A DNA stretch of 64,000 nt from Fimbriimonadaceae bacterium (GTDB lineage Bacteria > Armatimonadota > Fimbriimonadia > Fimbriimonadales > Fimbriimonadaceae). Location of the stretch: contig CP075365.1 of the NCBI GenBank assembly GCA_019454125.1, positions 1,482,218 to 1,546,217 on the forward strand, written 5' to 3'. Both the position numbers and the translations under genes were made by a program. Position 1 is the first letter of the stretch. The number at the start of each line of letters is the position of its first letter. The notes under the pieces were generated by a model. It worked only from the letters and a program-made list of their open reading frames with translations. It was not told the origin of the DNA and made no database searches. This document shows positions 32,960 to 45,220 of this stretch, piece after piece.

Positions 32960-34942
32960 GTGCTGCTCGGCGTCAACAACGTCCGCAAGCTTTTCGCCGC
33001 CGAAATCGTGCTCGACGGCGTGTCCTTTCGCATCGACCGGAAGGCGAAGGTGGCCTTGGTGGGTCGCAACGGGACGGGCAAGACAACGCTCCTCAAGATC
33101 ATCACGGGCCAGTACGAACCGGACGGCGGTTCGGTGCATTTGGCACGGGGCGCGAAAGTCGGCTACCTGCGGCAGGAGCACGCGGTCGACGAAACGCGGA
33201 CCGTGATCGAAGAAGCGCAGTCCGGCATCGCTGACCGTCTTGCCATGAAGGCCCGCCTGGAGGAACTGGAGGAGAGAATGGAGGGCGGCGCCAGCGAAGA
33301 GGACCTCGAAGAATACGCCCTGCTCCACGAGCACTTCCTGGAGAGCGAGGGTTACTCGGCGGAGACCGACGTCCGTGTGGTGCTCCAGCGCATGGGCTTC
33401 GAGGAGGCCGATTTTGACCGCAGCACGGCGGGACTGAGCGGGGGGGAGAAGACACGCCTCGCGATCGCACGGCTCCTCCTGGAAGAGCCCGACCTCCTGA
33501 TCTTGGACGAGCCCACGAACCACCTGGACCTGCAGGCGACGGAATGGCTCGAGAGTTGGATCCGCCGCTATCACGGCGCTGTCCTGCTTGTGAGCCACGA
33601 CCGCACATTCTTGGAGAACACGGCGGACGAAGTGGTCGAGATGCGGGACGGAAGGACCAAGCACTATCCCGCTGACTTCAAGAAGTACCTCCAGCTGCGG
33701 GCGGAGGACGAGGCGCGCCAGGCAGAAGTCGCGGCGCGGCAAGCCCAGGAGATCGCCAAGCTCGACGAATATGTCCGGCGGTTCATGAACAGCCAGCGCA
33801 CGGCCCAGGCGCGCGGGCGGCTCAAGCAGATGGAGAAGCTGGCCGCCAACCAGGTCCACGCCCCGAAGCAGGAGAAGGGCATGGCGGCGGGCTTCGGCGC
33901 CACCCGGCGCTCGGGCGACGTCGCCATGGAGGCCAAGAACCTCGCCGTCGGCTTTCCGGGCGTGCAGCTCTATGGCGGCCTGGACTGGACGGTCCGATGG
34001 GGCGAGCGGTGGGGCGTGGTGGGCGAGAACGGGGCAGGGAAGTCGACCCTTATCAGAACCATGCTCGGGCTCCACGAGCCTTTAGGCGGCGAGTGCCGCC
34101 TCGGGGCGAACGTCGTCGTCGGTTACTTCCACCAGGACGTGAGCGACCTCGACGTCGAGATGACGCCGCTCGAGTTCATGGTCTATGAGTGCGGGATGGA
34201 GAGCCAGCCCGCGCGGGACCTGCTGGGCCGTTTCCTCTTCAGCGGGGACGACGTGATGCGCCCGATCCGTACCTTGAGCGGCGGAGAGAAGAACAAGCTG
34301 GTGCTCGCGCGGCTCACTCGCCTGAACCCGAATTTACTCGTCCTTGACGAGCCCACGAACCACTTGGACATGGCGAGCCGAGAGGCGCTGGCCGAGATCC
34401 TGCAGGAGTACAAGGGCACCCTGGTCCTCATCAGCCACGACCGGTGGCTGCTCACCCACGTGGCGGACCGCATTTTGGACGTTCGGCGGTCGGGGCCGCT
34501 GCTTTACCCGGGCGGCTTCGCCGATTATCGCAAGAAATCCCCCCTCCCCAAGCTTGGGGAGGGGGCAGGGGGAGGGGTTCGGAAAGCCCCCTCCCCTGGC
34601 AGGGGGGAGGGGGCTGGGAGTGGGAGTTCGGGTCTTACCACCGAACCGGACGCTCCGCGGCAGTTAACCCCCCGCGAGCTGAGCAAAGAGATCGCGCGGC
34701 TCGAGAAACTCGTCTCCGAGCTCGAAGACCAGGTGGCAGAAGACGAGACCGAGCTGAAGTCCATCGAGAAGCAACTCGCCGACTTGCCACCGACCGCCGA
34801 CGTCTTCGACCTCTCCCGTCGGTACGAATCGCAGACAGAGCGGGTGGCGGCCAGCCTCTCCGCGTGGGAGGAGCAGTCCGTGCGCCTAGAGGCGTTGAAG
34901 GAGCAACAGGGCGTCGGCGTCAGCTTCCGGCCTCGGGACTAG
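32960..34942 (+). CDS. ABC-F family ATPase with a repeat-derived linker insertion
   Basis: This 660-residue cytosolic protein has two ABC ATPase domains and no membrane segments, as in ribosome-associated ABC-F proteins (Uup/YdiF type). Walker A motifs are GRNGTGKTT (about 35-43) and GENGAGKST (about 355). Signature motifs are LSGGEKTR (about 160) and LSGGEKNK (about 439), with LDEPTNHLD in both halves. The C-terminal coiled coil (about 570-660) resembles Uup. Residues about 527-555 ([13 protein letters not shown] onward) are encoded by a GC-rich repeat inserted in frame just before this coiled coil. The start is GTG at 32960. Confidence 0.9.
34539..34622 (+). repeat. GC-rich dispersed repeat inserted in frame in the ABC-F gene
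   Basis: CCCCTCCCC-AAGC-TTGGGGAGGGG starts a palindrome followed by GGGCAGGGGGAGGGG and a second module with CCCCTCCCCTGGCAGGGG. The same modules occur in the intergenic arrays at 38963 and 44738. It encodes about 28 Gly/Pro/Arg-rich residues without breaking the frame. Confidence 0.85.
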
Positions 34943-38936: not shown

Positions 38937-38962
38937 GCCGGAGTTCGTCTAACTCCTGGCAT

Positions 38963-39500
38963 CCCCCCTCCCCAGGCTTGGGGAGGGGGCTAGGGGGAGG
39001 GGTTTGCGCCCGCCCGCCAGGCCCGGGAACGTTTGTGGCTCCTGGCCCTTCTCCCCCCTCCCCAGGCTTGGGGAGGGGGCCAGGGGGAGGGTCGGCGCAG
39101 GCTCCCTCTCAGCACGGGGAACGATCCCCCTCCGCCCCTGCGGGGCACCTCCCCCGAAGCAGCGGGGGAGGGGGTTAGGGGGAGGGTCGGCGCAGGCTCC
39201 CTCTCAGCACGGGGACCGATCCCCCTCCGCCCCTGCGGGGCACCTCCCCCGAAGCAGCGGGGGAGGGGGCTAGGGGGAGGGTCGGCGCAGGCTCCCTCTC
39301 AGCACGGGGAACGATCCCCCTCCGCCCCTGCGGGGCACCTCCCCCGAAGCAGCGGGGGAGGGGGCCAGGGGGAGGGTCGGCGCAGGCTCCCTCTCAGCAC
39401 GGGGAACGATCCCCCTCCGCCCCTGCGGGGCACCTCCCCCGAAGCAGCGGGGGAGGGACGGCGGTCGTGCTTCGCGGGGGCTAGGGAGAGGGGTTGGCGC
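38963..39500 (+). repeat. GC-rich palindromic repeat array 1
   Basis: The stretch from 38937 to 39614 has no convincing gene. It holds two copies of a module with CCCCTCCCC-AGGCT-TGGGGAGGGG (38963-39003 and 39053-39093), then a tandem array of a 95-bp unit starting at 39094, 39189, 39284 and 39379. Each 95-bp unit has two hairpins: GCCCC-TGC-GGGGC and CCTCCCCC-GAAGCAGC-GGGGGAGG. Copies differ at only a few bases, for example TTAGG, CTAGG or CCAGG in the same position. The last unit ends in a different tail (GTCGTGCTTCG) that is also found in array 2. Confidence 0.95.
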
Positions 39501-39614
39501 CGCCATGTGCCGCCTGTGAGACCCGCCCTGTGCCGCTCCAAGACTGCCGGATCGTGTCCTAACTTTCTGGAAAACAACCGTCTCGATCCGCAGTTTAGGC
39601 GTGTAAGCTAAGAC

Positions 39615-44697: not shown

Positions 44698-44737
44698 GGG
44701 GCCGGGCCCGCCGGAAGAACCCTCTCGGCCCGCTGAA

Positions 44738-45220
44738 CCCCCTCCGCCCCTGCCGGGGCACCTCCCCCGAAGCATCGGGGGAGGAGTGGCTGTCGTGCTT
44801 CGACGAAAGCCCCTCCCCAGGCTTGGGGAGGGGGGCAGGGGGAGGGGTGGCGCAGGTTCCCTCCCGGTACAGGAAACCCCCTCCGCCCCTGCGGGGCACC
44901 TCCCCCGAAGAATCGGGGGAGGAGTGGCCGTCGTGCTTCGACGAAAACCCCTCCCCAGGCTTGGGGAGGGGGCAGGGGGGAGGGGTGGCGCAGGTTCCCG
45001 CCCGGTGCAGGGAAACCCCCTCCGCCCCTGCGGGGCACCTCCCCCGAAGCATCGGGGGAGGGGTGGGTTCCCTGTCTCGGCCCGGGAGCACCCCCTCCGC
45101 CCCTTCGGGGCACCTCCCCCGAAGCATCGGGGGAGGGGTGGCGCAGGCTCATTGCCTCGGTACAGGGAAACCCCCTCCGCCCCTGCGGGGCACCTCCCCC
45201 GAAGCATCGGGGGAGGGTGG
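44738..45220 (+). repeat. GC-rich palindromic repeat array 2
   Basis: The 571 bp from 44698 to 45268 hold no gene. Five copies of a 46-bp core begin at 44738, 44877, 45016, 45091 and 45171; the core includes CCCCCTCCGCCCCTGCGGGG and CCTCCCCC-GAAGCATC-GGGGGAGG. The first two copies are 139 bp apart because they also carry the CCCCTCCCCAGGCTTGGGG module. The family is the same as in array 1, with CATC replacing CAGC in the loop. Confidence 0.95.

Follow-up and report, generated by a model that had tools for sequence, protein, structure and literature searches.

A short repeat of the intrastrand-triplex type, which is multiplying in the Fimbriimonadaceae, appears to have inserted in frame into the already disordered linker of an ABC-F ATPase gene and to be tolerated there as DNA-level baggage, a reading to which we would assign a probability of roughly 0.8. 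The gene lies in a window of 64,000 nucleotides (the whole stretch of DNA that was analysed, from contig CP075365.1 of a Fimbriimonadaceae bacterium), and the relevant features of the window are as follows.

32960..34942, + strand: ABC-F ATPase ORF of 660 aa, host of the repeat insertion (Pfam ABC_tran twice, NCBIfam ribo_prot_ABC_F)
34540..34577, + strand: repeat unit 1, a perfect 10-triplet class II intrastrand triplex motif (sequence, window matches, blastn, triplex scan)
34540-34549, + strand: C-rich arm of unit 1, CCCCCTCCCC
34550-34555, + strand: loop of unit 1, AAGCTT
34556-34565, + strand: G-rich arm of unit 1, GGGGAGGGGG
34566-34567, + strand: loop of unit 1, CA
34568-34577, + strand: second G-rich (mirror) arm of unit 1, GGGGGAGGGG
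34578..34586, + strand: spacer TTCGGAAAG separating units 1 and 2 (sequence)
34587..34624, + strand: repeat unit 2, degenerate, with CCCCCTCCCC, a G-rich arm and an imperfect third arm GGGAGTGGG (sequence, palindrome count)
34670..34909, + strand: C-terminal helical hairpin, residues 571-650, directly 3' of the disordered linker (AlphaFold model)
38964..39092, + strand: two intergenic units at the head of a 95-bp tandem array (window matches, gene calls, triplex scan)
44810..44986, + strand: two more intergenic units, in a second array (window matches, gene calls, triplex scan)

The ORF at 32960-34942 is open throughout, including across both repeat units, and the initial annotation was correct in describing the reading as clean on both sides. 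Its assignment of the gene to the ABC-F ATPases, with a Uup-type C-terminal coiled coil, holds at the level of the general family, as the NCBIfam ribo_prot_ABC_F model scores 417 bits against a cut-off of 380 and Pfam finds two ABC_tran domains, the twin-domain arrangement of ABC-F proteins. The Uup cut-off was missed, with 362 bits against 900, and the EttA-specific cut-off was not reached either. In common with known ABC-F ATPases the protein has two ABC domains, inter-domain helices and a C-terminal helical hairpin, and it differs from them in that the linker preceding the hairpin holds the repeat. In the AlphaFold model the hairpin helices (571-607 and 616-650) have pLDDT values of mostly 86-95, and the linker between the second ATPase domain and the hairpin falls below 50 over residues 530-567, a stretch that includes most of the repeat-encoded residues (~527-555). 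Within such a linker the sequence probably matters little. As the frame is intact and the motifs are conserved, the protein carrying the insert would be expected to be made and to have retained its function.

The inserted block of about 85 nt (~28 codons, 34540-34624) consists of two units, the second degenerate; the initial annotation, which had placed a single segment at 34539-34622, was right in the number of encoded residues and missed this composition. Unit 1 has the structure by which triplex motifs are defined, with 10 of 10 triplets and loops of 6 and 2 nt. Over ~40 nt it is 95-98% identical to many dispersed copies found by blastn in its own genome, and it looks recent. Unit 2 starts 47 nt downstream of unit 1, each is followed by TTCGG, and unit 2 (34587-34624) was not picked up by the strict triplex scan.

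Further copies of the core of the first unit (34537-34577) lie in the window at 38961, 39051, 44806 and 44944, which bears out the proposal that the gene and the intergenic arrays contain the same repeat. Both arrays (38975-39544, with a 95-bp period, and 44703-45214, irregular) contain, besides the triplex unit, another palindrome, CCCCCTCCGCCCCTGCGGGGCACCTCCCCC. With a 121-base query blastn found 143 matches across the 2.65 Mb genome, each palindrome being counted on both strands; the best short ones are 97-98% identical over ~40 nt. The palindrome pattern was counted 68 times in this genome (G000) as opposed to twice in a reversed control. In one orientation most copies consist of a C-rich arm, a variable loop, a G-rich arm, 2-3 bases and a second G-rich arm (AGGGGGAGGGG); that is, the unit is itself a hairpin with a one-sided tail (GGGGAGGGG), the tail being a mirror copy of the G-rich arm. 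Because the second G-rich arm mirrors the first, the unit can be assigned to the class II intrastrand triplex motifs, and for the GC-rich palindrome of the initial annotation, which is a real repeat, the term pyrimidine-purine-purine triplex motif is more apt. A scan that followed a published definition (PMC4666352), narrowed to stems of 8-12 nt and one mismatch in all, found 60 strict motifs in 258 kb of stretches of this genome, which were chosen around the repeats (exact palindromes), and none after shuffling. Four runs of at least four G are present in 49 of the 68 copies of this genome and in 43 of 47 copies in a genome of another genus (g8; G008), and the G strand might alternatively fold into a quadruplex. 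As the conserved feature a G-quadruplex is possible, but the mirror symmetry of the arms is better matched by the triplex motif. The palindromes are very unevenly distributed, as 68 were counted in G008, two in a genome of the same genus (G001) and none in most others; in relatives the architecture is the same and the loops are different, with the tail GGCAGGGGGTGGGGG in G008. An Rfam search gave no match at the gathering score, and a literature search on repeats of the Fimbriimonadaceae returned nothing relevant.

Motifs of this kind, known as TM/PIT, have been reported from more than 260 bacterial genomes, and their class II is defined by a Y-R-R order of arms, stems of 6-15 nt, loops of 1-6 nt and at most one mismatch (PMC4666352). 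In the same study triplexes were seen in vitro, but footprinting in vivo gave no support for stable ones; it found no mobility genes near the motifs and linked them to instability, for which it proposed replication stalling and repair among other routes (PMC4666352). The repeat described here resembles TM/PIT in its pyrimidine, purine and mirrored purine arms, in its size of ~38 nt, in its many near-identical copies and in that no mobilising gene was found nearby. It differs in its arm, which is CCCTCNCCC in E. coli and CCCCCTCCCC here, and in its tandem arrays of various periods. The E. coli copies (TMECO) are reported to be always intergenic (23 of 23; PMC4666352), a location that is an observation and not part of the definition; most other copies of the present repeat are intergenic too, and the ABC-F copy, inside an ORF, departs from this pattern, as do some copies in conserved genes of genus g8.

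In-frame repeats are themselves familiar from other bacteria. The RPE of Rickettsia are palindromic repeats that lie in frame within genes (as described in PMC10969869), and the two systems have in common an apparently tolerated in-frame insertion into unrelated conserved genes; RPE are, however, ~150 bp long, often genic and encode a conserved peptide, whereas the units here are ~40 nt, mostly intergenic and read in differing frames. GTAG/CGTC REPs within genes are often dimers encoding 20-30 aa, and it has been suggested that flexible linkers tolerate them (PMC3733652). They likewise are small stem-loops tagged at one end, present in many copies, with genic dimers of 20-30 aa; the present repeat differs in having no GTAG/CGTC tag, no RAYT that could be found and a tail that mirrors the G-rich arm. 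Judged from these features, the units fit best as repeats that behave like RPE or intragenic REPs but belong to the triplex-motif class, and in another phylum; they are placed outside both of the former because no conserved peptide, no tag and no RAYT were found.

The most serious alternative is that the units are REPs or REPINs moved in trans by a RAYT (REP-associated tyrosine transposase), the ABC-F copy being an ordinary intragenic REP of the dimeric, 20-30 aa kind (PMC3733652). The size class, the one-sided tail after a stem-loop, the arrays, the high copy number and the patchy distribution all agree with such an origin, and the genome does encode two Y1_Tnp proteins. Against it, the REP tags are nearly absent (GTAG in 2 and CGTC in 4 of 68 units), which led to the rejection of a plain GTAG/CGTC REP; the CCCTCCCC palindrome was absent from all 32 Y1_Tnp loci examined in this and related genomes, and thus no RAYT gene flanked by the repeat was found among them; and G008, where the units are abundant, has only two weak Y1_Tnp matches. 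Both Y1_Tnp (RAYT-like) genes of the present genome (L039 and L040, at G000:C1 ~1376029 and ~2573537) are flanked by inverted repeats of their own, unrelated to the CCCTCCCC repeat. Next to the gene near ~1376029 (L039) there is also a perfect 236-nt direct repeat. On balance a RAYT-driven origin is unlikely.

The history of the insertion can be read from the orthologues, a comparison that the initial annotation had proposed. Orthologues from the family and the order, 29 in all and including the one from the same genus, were aligned. Their flanking domains are intact and align well, the linker sequence is unrelated, and the segment is absent from all of them, which indicates that the repeat entered coding DNA. 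Since 29 of 29 have an unrelated linker, the segment is taken to have been acquired on this lineage, after its split from the nearest genome compared; the whole genome of the same-genus relative contains one weak match to the repeat, within cas4. The claim that a linker was gained is not supported, as every orthologue already has an unrelated linker at this place, of low complexity and with much P, A, K and S. The linker measures 44 aa here, 32 aa in the same-genus sister and 21-42 aa (median 25) among the orthologues, a growth of 12 aa over the sister and 19 over the median. By this comparison the linker is older than the repeat and was lengthened or partly replaced, not gained. Only ~15-17 host-like residues are left, below the typical 25, and part of the original linker was therefore probably replaced or lost. 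Because the linker is hypervariable, neither a target duplication nor a clean empty site is readable in the ABC-F gene. A MITE would have terminal inverted repeats and a target-site duplication, and the unit here is itself a hairpin. Mobility of the repeat, which the initial annotation had inferred, thus holds as movement of sequence and does not extend to transposition; for the repeat neither a mobilising enzyme nor a junction bearing the mark of movement was found.

Under the preferred reading, a triplex-type repeat would have entered the linker between the second ATPase domain and the hairpin as a tandem pair, or else as one unit that was duplicated later. Such an insertion would survive where there is no stop in any frame, where the net length change keeps the frame and where the linker tolerates any sequence, so that the unit would be carried as protein without being a selected peptide. 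Its spread may have involved copying via single-stranded, repair or replication-slippage intermediates, or alternatively a putative enzyme acting in trans. It could instead be argued that the block arose locally, within a G-rich linker, through slippage or a switch of template, and later underwent gene conversion from dispersed copies. The 47-nt distance between the units, the TTCGG after both and the link between triplex DNA and replication instability (PMC4666352) would fit, but local slippage is unable to make a 40-nt sequence that is 98% identical to distant copies, and at least one copy must have come from elsewhere. As an account of the whole block local slippage is improbable; as the source of unit 2 it may have played a part.

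The ABC-F gene is not the only gene that contains the repeat, and the main examples from this genome and G008 are the following.

G000:C1:271473-273491 (L125:3474-5492): argS (arginyl-tRNA synthetase) ORF with one in-frame unit
G000:C1:719950-720612 (L131:7951-8613; also L169 and L174): cas4 copy (Pfam Cas_Cas4)
L216:5777-7192: homoserine dehydrogenase of G008, with a ~60-aa insert of tandem 17-codon units in the ACT region
L216:7239-8567: acyl-CoA dehydrogenase of G008, neighbour of the homoserine dehydrogenase gene

About 5 of 67 palindromes in the stretches of this genome lie inside genes, as positioned by a simple home-made codon-usage gene caller, though 82% of these stretches is coding; the repeat is strongly excluded from coding DNA, yet present there. 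As the stretches were chosen around exact palindromes, this count may have passed over degenerate copies within genes in other parts of the genome. Because most units lack stops (48 of 68 copies are free of them in all six frames), a copy that lands in frame in a loop can survive. In argS the unit occupies a loop; at this place 22 orthologues either have different sequence or lack any. Three genomes of two genera have a G/C-rich palindromic insert in cas4, immediately ahead of the EYKSG motif. The copies of this genome and its same-genus relative share arms and differ in the loop, the insert in the other genus is longer, and homologues from further afield lack it, which suggests either that the insertion is older or that the site is a preferred one, possibly an insertion hotspot. 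In G008, 7 of 47 sampled palindromes lie within four genes. Its homoserine dehydrogenase contains three of them with a spacing of 51 nt, and here the insert is clean, the flanks being directly joined in 13 orthologues. The SufB/D gene, whose orthologues are shorter at the same place, and an AIRS-family gene are also among the four. Two units 51 nt apart are present, on the opposite strand, in the middle domain of the acyl-CoA dehydrogenase. A 253-aa ORF at G000:C1:1838282-1839043 has two reverse-strand units and no Pfam match; it may be a real protein or spurious, and was left out of the firm genic copies. Judging from these genes, in-frame insertion is not a single accident. With the frame preserved and the repeat recurring in other genes, an error in the single assembled contig is also unlikely.

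One might suppose that the insert is selected, its Gly/Pro-rich extension or its mRNA hairpin tuning the ABC-F protein or its translation. Unit 1 does retain a perfect triplex motif and the predicted RNA folding is strong (-61.2 kcal/mol, z -2.2), but conservation proves nothing in a unit that looks recent, the insert is common to no orthologue, and the argS copy is read in a frame other than that of the ABC-F copy. Because different genes use different frames, no encoded peptide appears to be selected, and selection on this insert is very improbable. Least tenable of all, with next to no probability, is an ancient protein linker with G/P-rich codons that look like the repeat by chance. All orthologue linkers are indeed of low complexity, but their comparison refutes this reading, and ~40 nt match non-coding copies in other parts of the genome at 95-98% identity and make up a perfect triplex motif.

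Genic copies that are absent from orthologues represent insertion events with readable junctions, which intergenic copies rarely provide, and the best readable of these is the homoserine dehydrogenase of genus g8 (G008). A broader proposal, which we regard as tentative and on present evidence rather doubtful, is that intrastrand-triplex repeats form an active class of mobile DNA in the Armatimonadota that, without a dedicated transposase, repeatedly invades loops of conserved proteins in frame. If this were true, triplex repeats would be a source of new protein linkers outside Rickettsia and the REP/RAYT systems. The phenomenon of in-frame repeats is already known; what differs here is the class of repeat and the phylum, and a mostly non-coding repeat can thus become protein sequence in bacteria beyond Rickettsia and the REP-rich genera.
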